Origin: a virus
DNA length: 20,444 nucleotides
Direction: 5' to 3' (one strand)
IMG/VR virus record: IMGVR_UViG_3300009160_000212
Span: 1-20,444 of that record
Shown here: positions 3,136 through 19,826 of the stretch, piece by piece
How the letters are laid out: each line of letters begins with the position of its first letter
Numbering within the stretch: the stretch's first letter is position 1
Translations under genes and position numbers: made by a program
The notes under the pieces: model-generated
Told to the model about the DNA's origin: nothing
The model's input: the letters and a program-made list of their open reading frames with translations, nothing else
Databases searched by the model: none

Positions 3136-3577
3136 TTTGAAATCCTCGTTCTTGGCATATTTTAGCCACTGTGATGTATTTATTCAATTCATGCTGAAAT
3201 TTATTTTGCCTAATCAAATCTTGCTCATACTTGACGGAATACAGCAAATAATCTGATTTAAGATTTTTTTTAAGTCGTTGATGAATTGCTTTGTCAACAT
3301 TAATACTTTCCAATAACAAATCTAATTCTAACACTCTATTTGCTTCGTAGAACTTATCGTGCTTGTCAAGTATCGCCCATACAGTGGCATTTTTTATTTT
3401 GTTAAAGGTAAACTCACGCTCATCGCGATGTCTGTACACAACAAAAACTCCTTTAGTTTTGAATATCTTGTATTTCTCAAAAAGCACATAAGAATCGTCA
3501 TCGTTATATATCAAGCAATTTAACAGTGTAGGTGTCACTAATTTACTAATTTTGTCAATGTGTTCAAGTTTATTCAT
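3074..3577 (-). CDS. Phage protein of unknown function (167 aa)
   Basis: No family was recognised. The first two thirds look like a mixed alpha/beta domain (for example SYVLFEKYKIFKTKGVFVVY, then NATVWAILDKHDKFYEANRV). The last part is basic and helical and ends in a Gln/Lys-rich tail with no motif. It overlaps the upstream 149-aa gene by 8 bases (ATGAATAA) and the downstream 236-aa gene by 62 bases, so all three are probably translated from one transcript. A GATAAATA late promoter candidate lies 42 nt upstream, pointing to late expression. Confidence 0.8.
   Translation of the reverse strand: MNKLEHIDKISKLVTPTLLNCLIYNDDDSYVLFEKYKIFKTKGVFVVYRHRDEREFTFNKIKNATVWAILDKHDKFYEANRVLELDLLLESINVDKAIHQRLKKNLKSDYLLYSVKYEQDLIRQNKFQHELNKYITVAKICQERGFQNELNRPSGKQKEQVGYQSIA
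3177..3184 (-). promoter_or_regulatory. Late promoter candidate (AATAAATA) for the 236-aa gene
   Basis: AATAAATA on the minus strand matches 7 of 8 positions of TATAAATA. It is 41 nt upstream of the ATG at 3135, inside the coding region of the preceding gene. Confidence 0.45.
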
Positions 3578-4019
3578 CGCGTTCTACTTCAAAGTGAATG
3601 TTTTTTAGGTTCAATGATATATTTATCTGCGACTGTTGATCAACAGTTTCGTCCAATCTTAACAGCATTGGAACTCCATCACAATCCGAGAATAAATTTC
3701 CAAGTTCATTGTTACCGTCATTAAACACCCCACTGTGATGAATGGTAAATGAGAATGACCAAATATAAACTTCGTTGTCTTGTTTTGTATATTGACTACC
3801 CCATCTAGTGTCATTTCTAATAGAAACTAAAGTTTTTTTGGGTTCAGTGATATTTTCTGGCTGGCTTCGCATGCTTATTATTTGAAGCACTGTTTCAAAA
3901 TTAGTTTGCTGATTTCTCTGCTTTACATAAAGAGTAGAATCTTGCACATTGTACGAAGTTCTTCTATTGCTTATATTTGTCTTAGTAATATCAAAAAGTG
4001 TGTAACATTTAATTTTCAT
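3570..4019 (-). CDS. Conserved-type T4-like phage protein, unknown function (149 aa)
   Basis: The protein begins MKIKCYTLFDITKTNISNRR. Other recognisable stretches are QRNQQTNFETVLQIISMRSQ and SDCDGVPMLLRLDE. From memory, short proteins with this order (KCYxLFDIT ... RNQQxNxETxxQxxxxRxQP ... DCxxVPM) are widespread in T4-like aquatic phages, with no known function. I chose the ATG at 4019. A longer reading from 4076 would translate the terminator hairpin at 4048-4064, so it is not a real extension. There is no Shine-Dalgarno. CGTAAATA (4034-4027), a 6/8 late promoter match, ends 7 nt from the ATG and suggests a leaderless late mRNA. The 3' end overlaps the 167-aa gene by 8 bases. Confidence 0.8.
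   Translation of the reverse strand: MKIKCYTLFDITKTNISNRRTSYNVQDSTLYVKQRNQQTNFETVLQIISMRSQPENITEPKKTLVSIRNDTRWGSQYTKQDNEVYIWSFSFTIHHSGVFNDGNNELGNLFSDCDGVPMLLRLDETVDQQSQINISLNLKNIHFEVERDE
3620..3627 (-). promoter_or_regulatory. Late promoter candidate (GATAAATA) for the 167-aa gene
   Basis: GATAAATA on the minus strand is a 7/8 match to the T4 late consensus. It is 42 nt before the ATG at 3577, almost the same spacing as the candidate at 3177-3184. Confidence 0.5.
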
Positions 4020-5656: not shown

Positions 5657-7084
5657 TTAAGTATTCTGCTTTAAGTTATTAAGCATTGCTTTTAATTTTG
5701 CACTTTGAGTATCGGCAACAACTGGTTTTGCAGATGATAAAATCTCTCCAGTATTAGAGTCAATCTTTGGAGAAACAGCCGTTCCTACACTGCTGCTGGT
5801 TTTAATTTTATTCAACAGAGAACTTGCACTGTTACTGCTGGCAGTGTAACCAGTACTATCACCGTCATCAAAGATTTTTAGAGTGTCAACATTAAAAGAC
5901 AAATCAATCTTTTGACCTACACCACTTGATGAACGAGTCTTCATCAATTGAATTTGATATTGTCCCTTTTCTCTCATATGACGACTGGTAAAAATGCCGA
6001 ACACATTATCAGCCGTGTTAATTTTTGAGATACCGCCGCTGATATGACTGTGATCAAATTCAATTTCTTCAACAGCCGAACGATTAAGCTGACTAGCCGT
6101 TACCAACAACACATTCAATTCTTTTGCCAAGTTACGAATTTCCTCACTGACATATTTGTCTTTAATAAACAGATCACTGGGGCTAACTTTTGTACTTACT
6201 GGCATTAACAAATCCAAATAATCAATACACACAAAATCTATTGTAACTCCAGTTTCAATACTTAGAGTTTTAATGTAGGCGCGAATGTCATTAACATTGC
6301 TTTGTGCCGGCATGTATTTAATCCAAAATCTACCTGCTTTTTTGGCAGTCATCTTAACTTTTAATTCAACATCGTCCAAATTCTTAAAAACATCTTTGGT
6401 TGATGTATCAGTCATCATACTATCAATACGCCATGCACATAGTTCCTCACTCAGTTCTAGTGTAACGTATACACCATTTAGACCAGCAAGTGCCCAATTT
6501 ACACTGAGATTTTGCATGAACAATGATTTGCCGCTACCAGAACCACCAGCAAATATTTGCAACTCACCACGATTGAAACCTCCGTATAATTTGTTGTCTA
6601 GGCAGGGCCATCCAGTGCTTATTTGCCCGTTGTTATTTTTAATCTTATTCAATCTAGCTCGTGGGTCAGCAAAGTAATCAGTGCCCATGTCTTTTGTAAG
6701 AGAAATTTGCACTGCATCTTTGATTAGCTTTTCTACCGGGTCATAGTTACCCTTCTCAAGCAAATCAGCACTCTTAAAGATTGCTCGTTCTAATTCTTTC
6801 TTGCGAGTAAACTTTTCAAATTCATCTAGAAACCAATCAATATCACTTTTGCGTAAGTCATCAATGCACTTCAGACTGAGACCCGTAGTTGCATGAATTT
6901 GATCGCTGTCAGGAACACTAGTATACTTTTCAGCAAACTCTTTAATAAACTTTACTGTTGGTCTGAGACTTTTGTCAAAATTGTCACTGTTCAAAATATT
7001 AGTAATTCGTGTATACAACTGCGAGTCGCTAATCATCATTCGCAAGAACAATTCTTGTAGCTCTACTCCATACTCTTGACTCAT
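5657..7084 (-). CDS. 41: Replicative DNA helicase, DnaB/T4 gp41 type
   Basis: The 475-aa length is the same as that of T4 gp41. The N-terminal part (about residues 1-130) is the helical domain of DnaB-type helicases. The RecA-like domain has Walker A GGSGSGKS (180-187), the catalytic Glu in VTLELSE (E210), Walker B FVCIDYLDLL (284-293), a DnaB-type segment LLVTASQLNRSAVEEIEF and a final SHISGG...ADNVFGI motif. The protein would unwind DNA as a hexamer at the phage fork and load or carry the primase. It overlaps the primase gene by 4 bases (ATGA), so translation is coupled and the two subunits of the primosome are made together. The last 70 residues are Ser-rich and probably disordered. Confidence 0.95.
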   Translation of the reverse strand: MSQEYGVELQELFLRMMISDSQLYTRITNILNSDNFDKSLRPTVKFIKEFAEKYTSVPDSDQIHATTGLSLKCIDDLRKSDIDWFLDEFEKFTRKKELERAIFKSADLLEKGNYDPVEKLIKDAVQISLTKDMGTDYFADPRARLNKIKNNNGQISTGWPCLDNKLYGGFNRGELQIFAGGSGSGKSLFMQNLSVNWALAGLNGVYVTLELSEELCAWRIDSMMTDTSTKDVFKNLDDVELKVKMTAKKAGRFWIKYMPAQSNVNDIRAYIKTLSIETGVTIDFVCIDYLDLLMPVSTKVSPSDLFIKDKYVSEEIRNLAKELNVLLVTASQLNRSAVEEIEFDHSHISGGISKINTADNVFGIFTSRHMREKGQYQIQLMKTRSSSGVGQKIDLSFNVDTLKIFDDGDSTGYTASSNSASSLLNKIKTSSSVGTAVSPKIDSNTGEILSSAKPVVADTQSAKLKAMLNNLKQNT

Positions 7085-14429: not shown

Positions 14430-14459
14430 ATTATACTTATCAACCGTGTAGTGTGTCAA
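14430..14459 (-). promoter_or_regulatory. Sigma70-type promoter of uvsW
   Basis: TTGACA (14459-14454) and TATAAT (14435-14430), both exact consensus hexamers, are 18 bp apart. The -10 box ends 7 nt before the uvsW ATG at 14422. It directly follows the terminator of the AAA+ ATPase gene. Confidence 0.8.
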
Positions 14460-14518: not shown

Positions 14519-15562
14519 TCAAGCCTTGATGCAAGTCTCACGAGCAAGCATTTTCCAGTCGTTGGAGTCAATGCGAAACAGATCGGCAATCTTGAGCGAC
14601 ATACGGAGACTAATTTCGCGCATCTTGGAACGGTTCTCCCACATGAAGTCCAGAATTTCCTCAGCTTCGTTACCCTGAAAATCGTAGCTAGAGAACAGAC
14701 CACCAACCGTATCTTTACTGGCATCCTCGTGAACCTGCTTGACGCGAAGCATCTTATCACGCTCAGTGTTGATGGTCAGATCCAGATAGTGACAACGAGA
14801 TTGAAGTGCTTCCAAATGAGCCGCGATCTTCTTAGAACGACGGTCGCTAAAATCCAAGTTGGTCACGAAGATACAAGAACCGTTGAACTCAAAGTCAGTG
14901 GGAATGCCTTCCTTACGCAGATAAGAACTGTCACTGTTCCACCAAATGCGACGACGCTTGCCACTGTCAAGTGCAGCCTTCAGAATGTTAAGTGCATCCT
15001 GATCGTCCCACACATCGCAATCGTCAAAGACCAACACTGACTTGGAATCACTGTACTTATACAGCAGTGCATACAGACCGATAGCAGTGATCGCACCCTT
15101 GACAATCTCAAAACGAGTGCGCTTGCCAGCCAGCTTATCAAACAAGCTTGCCTTTTCCAGTTGAGTTTCAATACCGAACGACTTGCCAACACCAGGAGGG
15201 CCAGTCACGATCATGGCACGGCACTCACCGTTGATCGTAGCCTTGGTCATGGTGTCCAGAATGCGAAAGCGACGACGAATCCGATCCATTGCCTGCTCGT
15301 CAGTCTCATTGGATTCAGCCGCGACCGCAGGAGAGAATGCTACCACTTGAGCGGGTGCGGCAGCGTTGACAACCATCTCTACATCAGACATACTGGCAAT
15401 TTCAATATAAACCTGCTTGGAATCACCAGGCAGTTGACCGTCATTTTTGACTTGAATGCGACCAGTCATGGCATCCAGCGGACGAGCCAGCGTAAACATC
15501 ATATTCTCCACTGCAAAATTCATCTTACGATACACACCACGCTTAACAAGAATCTTAGCCAT
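14519..15562 (-). CDS. AAA+ family ATPase (347 aa)
   Basis: The N-terminal 110 residues have no clear domain; they carry an Ala/Val-rich stretch near 66-82. The ATPase core follows: Walker A GPPGVGKS (121-128), a helix and strand to Walker B VLVFDDCD (176-183), sensor-1-like CIFVTNLDF near 232-240, and a likely arginine finger in LEALQSRCHYLDL. The order and spacing fit AAA+ ATPases found in many large phages. The substrate is unknown; it may remodel a protein or nucleic acid complex early in infection, which is inference. GGAG 9 nt upstream supports the ATG. It is expressed from early promoter cassette 1 and ends in a strong terminator. Confidence 0.85.
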   Translation of the reverse strand: MAKILVKRGVYRKMNFAVENMMFTLARPLDAMTGRIQVKNDGQLPGDSKQVYIEIASMSDVEMVVNAAAPAQVVAFSPAVAAESNETDEQAMDRIRRRFRILDTMTKATINGECRAMIVTGPPGVGKSFGIETQLEKASLFDKLAGKRTRFEIVKGAITAIGLYALLYKYSDSKSVLVFDDCDVWDDQDALNILKAALDSGKRRRIWWNSDSSYLRKEGIPTDFEFNGSCIFVTNLDFSDRRSKKIAAHLEALQSRCHYLDLTINTERDKMLRVKQVHEDASKDTVGGLFSSYDFQGNEAEEILDFMWENRSKMREISLRMSLKIADLFRIDSNDWKMLARETCIKA

Positions 15563-15894: not shown

Positions 15895-15923
15895 AGTATA
15901 ACAGAGTTCCGAATTACTGTCAA
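15895..15923 (-). promoter_or_regulatory. Early sigma70 promoter cassette 2 (before the 79-aa gene)
   Basis: TTGACA (15923-15918), a 17-bp spacer, then TATACT (15900-15895). The TGA stop of the HD hydrolase gene (15922-15920) lies inside the -35 box. The leader TCAAGTTAGAAAACAG is the same as in cassette 5. Confidence 0.9.
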
Positions 15924-16363
15924 ACTAGCCGTGACTTGATTTCCATGTAAAATTGATGATACTTTGCCATACGAGAAATATCTTTTTCTGACACACCCTT
16001 AAGACGACGGATATCAGTGTTGTGTCTGAGATCAGACATCTTTACACGCATGGCATCCTCATTAGCAAAAACACCTTCCTTGTATTCTTCGTAGGTCTGA
16101 CCAGGAACCTTTGTCAGAGCCTTGATGCCTGCAATAACCCGTTCACTGATACCAGCATCACGGAGATCCTTGTATGTTACTGAGGTGTCCTCCACAACAT
16201 CATGTCCGAGTGCCATGCACATCAACTCTTCATCCTCAGTCTTGAGGTAATGCATTACCTTTAGTGGGTGAAGAATATATGGATTGCCACCCTTGTCAAA
16301 TTGACCAGCATGAGCATTGGTGACGATGACTAACATCTTACCAAGCATTTCACCCTTCTTCAT
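15920..16363 (-). CDS. SpoT/Mesh1-like HD-domain phosphohydrolase, probable (p)ppGpp hydrolase (147 aa)
   Basis: It matches the hydrolase domain of RelA/SpoT proteins throughout: NAHAGQFDKGGNPYILHPLK (H18, H32), MALGHDVVEDTSVTYKDL (H54-D55, E58-D59) and KMSDLRHNTDIRRL (D111, N115). These correspond to the metal-binding and substrate residues of the SpoT hydrolase (HP, HDxxED, DRxHN). No synthetase, TGS or ACT domain is attached, and the length fits Mesh1-type small hydrolases. It may lower host (p)ppGpp (stringent response) early in infection; other pyrophosphate substrates are possible. I chose the ATG at 16363 with GAAGGGG upstream. The reading from 16498 would begin upstream of the promoter and overlap the previous gene. 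Confidence 0.88.
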   Translation of the reverse strand: MKKGEMLGKMLVIVTNAHAGQFDKGGNPYILHPLKVMHYLKTEDEELMCMALGHDVVEDTSVTYKDLRDAGISERVIAGIKALTKVPGQTYEEYKEGVFANEDAMRVKMSDLRHNTDIRRLKGVSEKDISRMAKYHQFYMEIKSRLV

Positions 16364-16390
16364 ATCTGACCCCTTCTTTACTGTATTTGT

Positions 16391-16419
16391 AGTATATAAT
16401 AGGTCCGATTTATTGTCAA
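16391..16419 (-). promoter_or_regulatory. Early sigma70 promoter cassette 3 (before the HD hydrolase)
   Basis: TTGACA (16419-16414), a 17-bp spacer, then TATACT (16396-16391). The -35 box begins two bases after the TGA stop of the 250-aa gene (16424-16422). The spacer starts ATAAATCGG, as in cassette 1. Confidence 0.88.
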
Positions 16420-16421
16420 AT

Positions 16422-17174
16422 TCAGACAAAAATCTTAACACGATTAAGCTGAGTCTTACCATCAGCGTGATGCGCTTTGACAGTGCCCTGACCAGCAACT
16501 TTAGATCCGACCGCAGCCGAAGTTTTCTGACTGTAGAAGATTACTTGATCCTGATTCGTAATCAGAGTGGTAAAGTAGCAATTCCACTGCTGGCTGTAGA
16601 CCTGACGAAGTACCTCGCCAGCAAAGCTAATCTTATCGTCAATCTGACCAATATGGCCACCGCGCGCATCACTTATACGATCATCCACGGACTGTTTTGC
16701 CGTTGCACGTTCATATCCAATTGGCAAGTAAGCCACTGTGCCAAGATCACGATCACTGATAGTATCGCCATTGGCCAGGGCCAGTGATTTAGTGTCAAAT
16801 TCGTTCAGGACCTTGCCAGCAAGAATCTTAAACATCAAACCCTTGTAGTGAGTACGAATGTTAGATGCCAGAGCACGATCCTCTTCCGTGATCATAGAAG
16901 AATCTCCAAGAGCGCGGACCATGAAATCACGGTTGCTGATCACGGGAAAAGTCTCACCCTGATCATTGACAGAAACAGTGCCTGCATTGATGTACTGACC
17001 AGCACAAAGTCTGAATGCGGTCGCAGCAGCGGCAAAAACCGTGTCAGTGTCATACATCTTGGGTTGTGCGCGAACTGAGCGAGAGCGCCGAGCGGGCTGA
17101 TCTGCTTCATCTTGCTGATTGAGACGCTTGACTTCCAGAGTAGACATATTGGATACATCAACGAAACCACTCAT
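16422..17174 (-). CDS. Early protein of unknown function (250 aa)
   Basis: The first 40 residues are charged and Arg/Ser-rich, then come Ala-rich helices (TDTVFAAAATAFRLCAGQYI). The middle holds ISNRDFMVRALGDSSMITEE and IGYERATAKQSVDDRISDAR. The C-terminal part, TVKAHHADGKTQLNRVKIFV, could be strands of a small beta-barrel. No family was recognised. AAGGAG supports the ATG at 17174. Only 30 bases separate it from the 133-aa gene and no promoter is seen there, so it is probably co-transcribed with that gene from cassette 4. Its base composition is like the AAA+ ATPase nearby, and the two may work together (inference). Confidence 0.85.
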   Translation of the reverse strand: MSGFVDVSNMSTLEVKRLNQQDEADQPARRSRSVRAQPKMYDTDTVFAAAATAFRLCAGQYINAGTVSVNDQGETFPVISNRDFMVRALGDSSMITEEDRALASNIRTHYKGLMFKILAGKVLNEFDTKSLALANGDTISDRDLGTVAYLPIGYERATAKQSVDDRISDARGGHIGQIDDKISFAGEVLRQVYSQQWNCYFTTLITNQDQVIFYSQKTSAAVGSKVAGQGTVKAHHADGKTQLNRVKIFV

Positions 17175-18017: not shown

Positions 18018-18046
18018 AGTATAACAAAGAACCGAATTACTGTCAA
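18018..18046 (-). promoter_or_regulatory. Early sigma70 promoter cassette 5 (before the 106-aa gene)
   Basis: TTGACA (18046-18041), a 17-bp spacer, then TATACT (18023-18018). The TGA stop of the uvsY-like gene (18045-18043) lies inside the -35 box. Spacer and leader are nearly identical to cassette 2. Confidence 0.9.
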
Positions 18047-18498
18047 ATCGCGGCATCTTCCATACCCGATACGCGAAGACGAACAATATGCCCTAGCATA
18101 AAGTTTTTAGACTCCAGTCCCTTCATAATTCCAAGATAACGATTTCGTAGCAGAGAAACCTCGCCGATTAACAACTCCATGTTGATTACCTCGGTCTCTC
18201 CGTCTACATACTTTTCTGCATCACGACTGGTTAACGCTCGTTGATACCCCTCTAGATACTTTTTGAAGAACTTGCTTTTGGTTTTCTTTAGCTCTAAATT
18301 AAGATAGTTCAACACAGCCTCAATAAGTTGAAGCTGTTGAAATCTGTAATCAGTGATACCTGGTAAAGCCGCAAGATTTTTTTCTATATTTCCCTTTACG
18401 CTAACTTCATGTCGCGCATCTTCTAACTCTTTTTCATAGTGTGAAATAAAATCTGGCAATATTGCCAGATTTTGCGTCAGTTTAGCGTACCAATTCAT
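18043..18498 (-). CDS. uvsY: Probable UvsY recombination mediator (151 aa)
   Basis: The protein is all-helical and Lys/Glu-rich. The part LNLELKKTKSKFFKKYLEGY, followed by QRALTSRDAEKYVDGETEVI, and the end LGIMKGLESKNFMLGHIVRL have the order and character of UvsY proteins of T4-like phages: a long helix, a short K/RD...YV/IKGDxE segment, a helix, then the KxFxIxHIxxxR-like end. The length is close to T4 UvsY (137 aa). UvsY loads UvsX onto ssDNA coated with gp32. Position two genes after uvsX supports the call. It follows the 90-aa gene by four bases; no Shine-Dalgarno is evident. Confidence 0.65.
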   Translation of the reverse strand: MNWYAKLTQNLAILPDFISHYEKELEDARHEVSVKGNIEKNLAALPGITDYRFQQLQLIEAVLNYLNLELKKTKSKFFKKYLEGYQRALTSRDAEKYVDGETEVINMELLIGEVSLLRNRYLGIMKGLESKNFMLGHIVRLRVSGMEDAAI

Positions 18499-18502
18499 TT
18501 AA

Positions 18503-18775
18503 TTATTCAGAATAATCATCTTGATCATCAAAATTCAATTCGTCATATTCTTCGTCTGTTTCATAATCATCAGTGGTATCCTCGCTATAAAACTTTACTG
18601 CTTCCATGATATCACTGTCTCCATCAAATTCGTGACGAATATCTTCTAAATCGTAATCGTGTTCCATAAGAATGATGATCAGATTATCTGCCAATTGTGA
18701 TCTGTCTTCTGGGTTGACATAATCACTCATTAAATTCCAAACATCAGAGATTGCTGTTAGTGTTGATTTATTCAT
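18503..18775 (-). CDS. Small acidic protein between uvsX and uvsY (90 aa)
   Basis: A helical N-terminal part (TAISDVWNLMSDYV, then QLADNLIIILMEHDYDLEDI) is followed by FDGDSDIMEAVKFYSED and a strongly acidic tail (DDYETDEEYDELNFDDQDDY). From memory, similar small acidic proteins lie beside uvsX in T4-like cyanophages; their function is unknown. The acidic tail could mimic DNA or bind a basic partner, which is only a guess. It overlaps the uvsX stop by 8 bases, with GAGG before its ATG, so the pair is co-translated. Confidence 0.8.
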   Translation of the reverse strand: MNKSTLTAISDVWNLMSDYVNPEDRSQLADNLIIILMEHDYDLEDIRHEFDGDSDIMEAVKFYSEDTTDDYETDEEYDELNFDDQDDYSE

Positions 18776-19826
18776 TGATTGCTTCCTCTACAATTTCAGT
18801 ATTAGTGACTTTAGTTTCAAATTCCTTCATTACCAAATCCATAATTCCATTTTCGTTTCTATTCCACTCTTTTCTGAAATACTTATGAATTTCTCCATTA
18901 TTATCAGTATAAGCGTAGCGATTGCCTTCTTTTTTAATTAACTGTCTTTTTTCAATCAAGTCAAAAAATCCGCTATATGGATTCATCCCCGTTTCGTAGG
19001 GAATCTGAATTTGAATGTCTTCAAACGGTTTAGCGTATCTGGTTTTCATGATCTTGCATCCAGCACGAATACCCAATACATCAGTGACCTTGTTTCCTTC
19101 TTCATCTTCTTTTAATTTCAATTTCTTCATTGCGACCAAAATAGATGATGCATACACAAATCCTTGTCCGCCGCTGACTACTGGGTCTGGATTATATGGG
19201 TCTTGGCTAGCATAAGAATGATTGGTAGCCACTAATCCGATGTTTAGTGAACCGAACATGTTGACACAGTTTCTGACCAAAGACATTAGAGCTTTTGGTT
19301 TTCTACCTAAATCCCCGCGCATGTCGCCACTTTCAAACTGATTCACATCGGTGGGAGTAAGCAACATGCCCAAACTATCAATTACAAACAAAACCTTTGG
19401 ACGCTCGCTTTCCGCGAGTGCTTTATAGCTTTTTACGAATTCGGTAATTGTCTTGGCAACATCATCAATCATGCTCATTGATAGACGAAGTAGTTTGTTC
19501 TCGTTAGTGTCTACTCCTAGATTTTTCAACCAACTTTCGTCAAGTGCATTTTCGCTGTCAATCAAAATTACATAAATGCCCTGTTCTTGAGCATTCTTTA
19601 CTATGTTACCAGAACAAATGTACGATTTGCCCGCCCCACTTTCTCCAGCAAATACCGTTACCTTTCCTAGCGGGATTCCTTTTTTGAAATCCCCAGATAT
19701 CAAATAATTCAGTGCGTAATTTCCAGTGCTGATCCAGTCAGTTGGATCATTGAATCCAATGCTAAGTCCGTCAATAGACTTAGTTATTTCTTTTCTGAAA
19801 CGACTAATATCAAATGGCTTTGTCAT
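18768..19826 (-). CDS. uvsX: UvsX, RecA-like recombinase
   Basis: A 352-aa protein (T4 UvsX is about 390). Walker A is GESGAGKS (61-68), followed by YVILIDSENALDESWLKNLG with the catalytic Glu, Walker B VLFVIDSLGML near 145-155, and a following TPTDVNQFESGDMRGDLGRK. The later NHSYASQDPYNPDPVVSGGQ corresponds to the DNA-binding loop region of RecA-like proteins. The protein forms filaments on ssDNA and carries out strand exchange for recombination-dependent replication. GGAAGA lies in the short gap before the ATG. It is encoded with the possible SSB upstream and the probable UvsY downstream. Confidence 0.95.
   Translation of the reverse strand: MTKPFDISRFRKEITKSIDGLSIGFNDPTDWISTGNYALNYLISGDFKKGIPLGKVTVFAGESGAGKSYICSGNIVKNAQEQGIYVILIDSENALDESWLKNLGVDTNENKLLRLSMSMIDDVAKTITEFVKSYKALAESERPKVLFVIDSLGMLLTPTDVNQFESGDMRGDLGRKPKALMSLVRNCVNMFGSLNIGLVATNHSYASQDPYNPDPVVSGGQGFVYASSILVAMKKLKLKEDEEGNKVTDVLGIRAGCKIMKTRYAKPFEDIQIQIPYETGMNPYSGFFDLIEKRQLIKKEGNRYAYTDNNGEIHKYFRKEWNRNENGIMDLVMKEFETKVTNTEIVEEAINE

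Follow-up and report, generated by a model that had tools for sequence, protein, structure and literature searches.

The stretch of DNA analysed here (the window, 20,444 nucleotides) is a 20.4-kb IMG/VR fragment with T4-like genes, and its source is a large T4-like phage. Profile or PHROG matches identify UvsX (18768-19826), UvsY (18043-18498), a DnaB-type helicase (5657-7084) and, on the minus strand at 11834-14443, a UvsW-type helicase with a LAGLIDADG intein-like insertion (PF14528, residues 396-461). The UvsX protein is 66-67% identical to the jumbo-phage UvsX proteins of Vibrio phage 2.275.O, Xanthomonas phage XbC2 and Pectobacterium phage CBB. Also on the minus strand, positions 14519-15562 encode an AAA ATPase-like protein of PHROG 1250 (4e-87, no assigned function), distant relatives of which occur in 1233 of 50,697 phage records, some of them labelled 'thioredoxin'. 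The PHROG matches of the UvsW-type protein to terminases, primases and helicases probably reflect a common intein, and a weak Cas4-like match at 1297-2034 on the minus strand (TIGR00372, E 0.002, below cut-off) is probably a phage exonuclease.

Among several small genes that separate uvsY from uvsW, positions 15920..16363 of the minus strand hold an ORF that begins with ATG and encodes a protein of 147 aa with a single HD domain, which from its sequence, predicted fold and place in a tree we describe as a predicted adenosine 3'-pyrophosphohydrolase of the Aph1 type. A ribosome-binding-like AAGGGG, read from the sequence, lies directly upstream of the ATG (16370..16375, minus strand). A longer form starting from a TTG at 16498 was considered and rejected, because it would cover the promoter and enter the upstream gene, and because the alignment with relatives begins at the ATG. 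The best PHROG for the protein is PHROG 990 (2.5e-58); Pfam HD_4 reaches 22.2 bits, below its gathering cut-off of 27.2, and the NCBIfam model TIGR00691 (spoT_relA) matches residues 13-97 with an E of 5e-15, far below its whole-protein cut-off. Pfam and NCBIfam profile searches found no synthetase domain in the 147 residues, and PADLOC returned no match for the hydrolase and five of its neighbours.

Upstream of the ORF, a sigma70-type promoter (TTGACA-17-TATACT; 16419..16391, minus strand) matches the consensus at 11 of 12 positions and ends 27 nt before the ATG, as expected from an earlier, sequence-only reading of this DNA that had given the gene a promoter of its own. Minus-strand sites with at least 11 of 12 matches number six in the window against 0.5 expected. 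Similar promoters, with at least 10 of 12 matches within 150 nt upstream, precede 67 of 79 hydrolase relatives, compared with 239 of 1316 other ORFs at the same loci (one of 80 relatives was left out, its start being too near the locus end); the p of 7e-35 for this comparison is no true probability, since the 1316 ORFs also count chance reading frames and ones internal to operons. In these relatives 23-31 nt usually separate the -10 box from the ATG. Since the promoter is kept upstream in most of them, the hydrolase gene would usually form its own transcription unit, whatever its neighbours, and the sigma70 type of the promoter suggests that it is expressed early. The window contains five near-identical promoters of the form TTGACA-17-TATACT, at 18046, 17664, 16419, 15923 and 15627, all on the minus strand, with one small gene behind each, in the interval from uvsY to uvsW or the AAA gene; their spacers are alike (ATAAATC or GTAATTCGG), and four of the five share a GTATTCA start region.

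The ORF at 15920-16363 is a real gene and not a chance reading frame, and it is under purifying selection: dN/dS is 0.021, 0.023 and 0.028 against three relatives (L003, L004 and L006), the other 11 tested comprising one identical sequence (L002) and ten with saturated dS. A tblastn search of 50,697 phage records finds hydrolase relatives in 325 at E<=1e-5 and in 383 at E<=1e-3, several of them annotated as ppGpp pyrophosphohydrolase; a first scan of genome contigs found no relative. In viral contigs the search pattern matched 104 stretches, 102 of which encode one, and we kept 80 of these 102 loci as a viral sample, across all of which H18, D23, H32, H54, D55, E58, D59, K108, D111, N115 and D117 are invariant. 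The residues H32, H54-D55, E58-D59, D111 and N115 are the RSH metal and HD residues, and all of them are in the hydrolase at the positions the sequence-only reading had assigned to them.

That reading had further credited the protein with a full SpoT/Mesh1-type active site, of which the metal and HD residues stand and the base-contacting Arg of SpoT and Mesh1 does not, being replaced by Asp. In RelSeq, Arg44 is reported to contact the guanine base, and the R44Q exchange to abolish hydrolase activity (PMC13299517). The alignment places Asp23 of the window protein (codon 16295..16297, minus strand, computed from the ORF start) where RelSeq Arg44 and the corresponding MESH1 Arg stand in the QxR motif, and all 80 viral relatives likewise have Asp at this position, whereas Arg occupies it in all seven of EcSpoT, RelSeq, RelMs, MESH1, SSU5 SAH, Lmo0812 and an Erwinia phage protein. 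(In a larger alignment the SSU5 row slips out of register at the Arg/Asp motif; the SSU5 sequence itself reads QKRK.) The rows with Asp are the window protein, 35 viral relatives (35 of the 80 viral loci entered the residue alignment, and all 80 the invariance count), PVP-SE1 gp220 and the structure 7smg, together with rows from Streptococcus, Pasteurella, Cronobacter, Escherichia W70, Vibrio, Aeromonas and Rhodococcus phages. These Asp-type rows also carry a second Asp after the N115 motif and a two-residue insertion relative to SpoT and Mesh1 (Asp117 in the window, codon 16013..16015, minus strand, again by alignment and computed from the ORF start), with Ser instead in the Rhodococcus row. 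Among 80 bacterial relatives the first Asp is present in 79, with one gap, a count biased by the finding of these relatives partly with an Asp-bearing pattern; the second position is Asp in 68, Asn in 11 and a gap in one. The Asp23/Asp117 signature was derived here from the alignment, independently of the published Aph1 specificity signature.

Comparison with solved structures gives the same assignment. The best match in a PDB sequence search is 7smg, described as a '(p)ppApp hydrolase' of Bacteroides caccae, at an E of 1.4e-24, with the best Rel at 8.3e-11 and MESH1 at 0.0059, and a profile of 11 family members against the PDB gave 2.9e-39 for 7smg against 2.1e-17. We take 7smg to be the Aph1 described by Ahmad et al. 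(2023). For an AlphaFold2 model of the hydrolase (mean pLDDT 92.7), Foldseek ranks 7smg first (E 3.3e-10) and MESH1 next (2.2e-6), while VIA superposes 7smg with Z 22.5 and an rmsd of 1.4 over 142 residues, followed by the Pseudomonas aeruginosa SAH 6yvc (Z 18.4, rmsd 2.2), with the HD domains of MESH1, SpoT and Rel mostly at Z 13-18 and some Rel entries lower. The sequence-only reading had named structure prediction against Mesh1 as a check on its assignment; by both programs the model lies nearer to 7smg.

In a tree of these sequences one branch separates Asp-type from Arg-type rows with support of 99/93 (61 versus 6 rows), and the same split appears at 97/93 (58 versus 5 rows) when the motif columns and long branches are removed; the Arg-type rows are thus few in both trees. 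The first tree included 46 of the 80 bacterial rows (the first 30, then every third), with L099 and L127 omitted for length, and the second also left out the long branches AsFcp2, Weasels2, Erw31 and PmpPasteurella. In the first tree the phage subgroup of the window comprises PVP-SE1 gp220, Cronobacter CR3, W70, Vibrio 2.275.O and one Mesorhizobium row (99/95); AsFcp2 also falls among the kin of the window protein there, on a branch of 3.3 that makes this placement untrustworthy. By sequence, fold and tree the hydrolase clusters with the (p)ppApp hydrolase of B. caccae and apart from SpoT, RelSeq, Mesh1 and SSU5 SAH, and we regard the enzyme class and this relationship as well supported.

These results bear directly on the reading that the gene encodes a SpoT/Mesh1-type (p)ppGpp hydrolase that relaxes the host stringent response. 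In its favour are the complete set of RSH metal and HD residues, the TIGR00691 match (sub-threshold for a whole protein) and the ppGpp pyrophosphohydrolase annotation of several related phage genes; but the guanine-contacting Arg, whose replacement by Gln reportedly kills hydrolysis in RelSeq (PMC13299517), is Asp in every one of the viral relatives, and both the nearest structure and the clade are those of a (p)ppApp hydrolase. We consider this reading unlikely. The SpoT/Mesh1-type assignment was accordingly rejected on the Asp for Arg, the PDB sequence search, the tree and the predicted fold, and the accompanying proposal that the phage clears (p)ppGpp to keep starved hosts active is not favoured, the place of R44 being Asp and the closest solved structure that of a (p)ppApp hydrolase. 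Activity on ppGpp is disfavoured by sequence and model, and clade, fold and this one residue suggest a substrate preference for (p)ppApp.

A second possibility is that the enzyme is promiscuous and that its main job is to remove the pyrophosphate put on the 3'-CCA of tRNA by the toxSAS defences CapRel, PhRel and FaRel2. The SAH of phage SSU5 is reported to do so (PMC11559606), tRNA-modifying CapRel is described as a proven anti-phage system (PMC9712102), and the adenosine at the tRNA 3' end would suit an adenosine-type pocket. SSU5 SAH is, however, of the Arg type and distant (34% identity over 109 residues), and the available parts of the literature on PVP-SE1 SAH and Aph1 carry no mention of tRNA action; as a main function we think tRNA repair improbable.

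The neighbourhoods of the relatives offer a different kind of evidence. Genes of NAD+ salvage lie within about 6 kb of the hydrolase in 20 of the 80 related loci, with an NMNAT-Nudix gene in 19 (17 of them at most 2.5 kb away) and a NAMPT gene in 17 (13 at most 2.5 kb away). In ten records with both genes, the NMNAT gene lies less than 8 kb from the hydrolase, centre to centre, in six, and at 8, 15, 27 and 287 kb in the other four. This closeness exceeds random placement (Fisher combined p 4e-5 for the ten records; 7e-4 for eight, with one of each close pair kept). At an identity threshold of 0.85 all NAD+-linked loci fall into one of 11 clusters, so independent linkage events may be few, and 13 of 23 related records contain neither NMNAT nor NAMPT. 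Whole or partial, the arrangement seen in the window (uvsX, uvsY, hydrolase, AAA gene and uvsW) recurs in L002, L006, L007, L008, L010, L012 and L019, so that the hydrolase gene occupies at least two settings.

Several further features of these loci may be recorded. The NMNAT-Nudix and NAMPT genes, an NAD+ rebuilding pair, stand directly downstream of the hydrolase in L054, L055, L057, L058, L060, L062, L064-L066, L068 and others, and macro-domain-like and dual-specificity-phosphatase-like genes lie close to it in some loci. Vibrio phage 2.275.O (L083) has a NADAR gene (3184-3672, 7.7e-48) two genes upstream of its hydrolase relative and a Nudix gene two genes downstream, and L048 encodes at 7-693 a second, different HD-domain protein.

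That the protein is instead an HD phosphohydrolase of metabolism, acting on a different adenine nucleotide (such as NADPH, PAP or CoA) alongside NAD+ salvage in large phages, would fit this proximity in a quarter of the related loci and the reported hydrolysis of NADPH by Mesh1 and XccSAH (PMC9765508), but the nearest tested relatives act on 3'-pyrophosphates and a NAPRTase-family match is absent from the window and from 13 of 23 related records, and we judge this very unlikely.

The proposal that the protein lacks a synthetase is confirmed, and it extends to the surroundings of the gene: the alarmone synthetase domain PF04607 is absent from the window and from 21 of 21 related phage records. 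PF04607 may miss prophage Apk domains, as a MuF gene beside a Streptococcus HD gene gave only Phage_Mu_F; within that limit, linkage to an alarmone-synthetase toxin of the apk2-iapK-aph1 prophage type was not found. The absence of PF04607 means that the hydrolase is not obviously an immunity factor against a toxin of the phage itself, and such a role was rejected for the window and the 21 related records, which may be fragments.

Our preferred reading, which we hold to be probable with substantial room for error, is that the protein acts as an adenosine 3'-pyrophosphohydrolase of the Aph1 type, is expressed early from its own promoter and reverses toxic (p)ppApp synthesis during infection. The gene would be transcribed early from its sigma70 promoter, and its product, a metal-dependent HD enzyme, would cleave the 3' pyrophosphate off (p)ppApp and give back ADP or ATP as usable nucleotide, possibly with a side activity on 3'-pyrophosphorylated tRNA. 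In this way the hydrolase could undo the action of toxic alarmone synthetases, whether of the host or of a rival or resident prophage, that drain ATP or block translation. The tested relatives and the genes found beside related loci point to such a counter-defence role. The sequence-only reading had also raised a role against toxSAS-type defence; a possible role of that kind is supported, the 56%-identical SAH of PVP-SE1 being reported to have relieved FaRel (PMC7644958), while a link to ppGpp clearing is not favoured.

Proximity to NAD+ salvage genes hints at a wider nucleotide-restoring counter-defence toolkit. We offer only tentatively, and as less probable than the enzymatic role itself, the view that a portable, self-promoted (p)ppApp hydrolase in large lytic phages is part of such a toolkit against ATP-draining synthetases, its partners often being NAMPT and a bifunctional NMNAT-Nudix, along with macro or NADAR ADP-ribose removers. 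If so, systems that convert ATP to (p)ppApp would be common anti-phage defences in the hosts of these phages. A ppGpp hydrolase annotation is common for the small HD enzymes of phages; should this group be specific for (p)ppApp, then that annotation and the accompanying 'anti-stringent response' account would be wrong for many phage genes, which would instead reflect an arms race in which ATP and toxic alarmones are at stake. The group also provides phage proteins that are directly testable against FaRel, Apk and CapRel systems.

Several known systems invite comparison. Among the literature matches listed, in which subscription journals are mostly uncovered, none reports an infection experiment on a (p)ppApp hydrolase from a lytic phage. 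The SAH of PVP-SE1, the ATfaRel of C. marina, SSU5 SAH and human MESH1 are reported to relieve FaRel toxicity in E. coli (Jimmy 2020, via PMC7644958), and, because SSU5 SAH and MESH1 did so too, relief of FaRel alone cannot separate activity on ppApp from activity on ppGpp. Pseudomonas phage Adele is described as carrying an SAH together with a pathway of NAD+ reconstitution, in a study that could not predict whether ppGpp or ppApp is preferred (PMC12846349). The HD domains of MESH1, SpoT and Rel share the HD fold and metal residues with the window protein but have Arg in the QxR motif and lack the Asp117 insertion. SSU5 SAH (PaSpo), from a Salmonella phage, is likewise a phage-encoded stand-alone alarmone hydrolase, reported to relieve toxSAS and to remove the modification that FaRel2 puts on tRNA (PMC11559606), but it is of the Arg type, is longer (213 aa) and is separated from the window protein by the main branch of the tree.

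Closer to the window protein is gp220 of Salmonella phage PVP-SE1, also of PHROG 990, which is 56% identical to it over 136 residues and is the sole tblastn match in the PVP-SE1 record, and so is probably the SAH that was tested on FaRel. Taken as such, it is like the hydrolase an Asp-type, stand-alone protein of a large phage; it differs in that PVP-SE1 belongs to the Vequintavirinae and has other neighbours around the gene, and its activity, the relief of FaRel, is reported second-hand.

The closest parallel in structure is Aph1 (7smg), which resembles the hydrolase over its whole length, in fold, in the HD residues, in the Asp that replaces the guanine-contacting Arg and in the Asp after the second N motif, but at an identity of only 34-38%. 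The Aph1 of apk2-bearing prophages is reported to hydrolyse pppApp and to protect across species, its gene standing behind the apk2 MuF toxin and iapK (PMC12226406); the label IPP37_Aph1 is a putative one, given from the gene order of MuF gene, small ORF and HD gene. Whereas prophage aph1 thus follows apk2 and iapK, the hydrolase gene of the window stands alone, without a synthetase, in a T4-like replication region.
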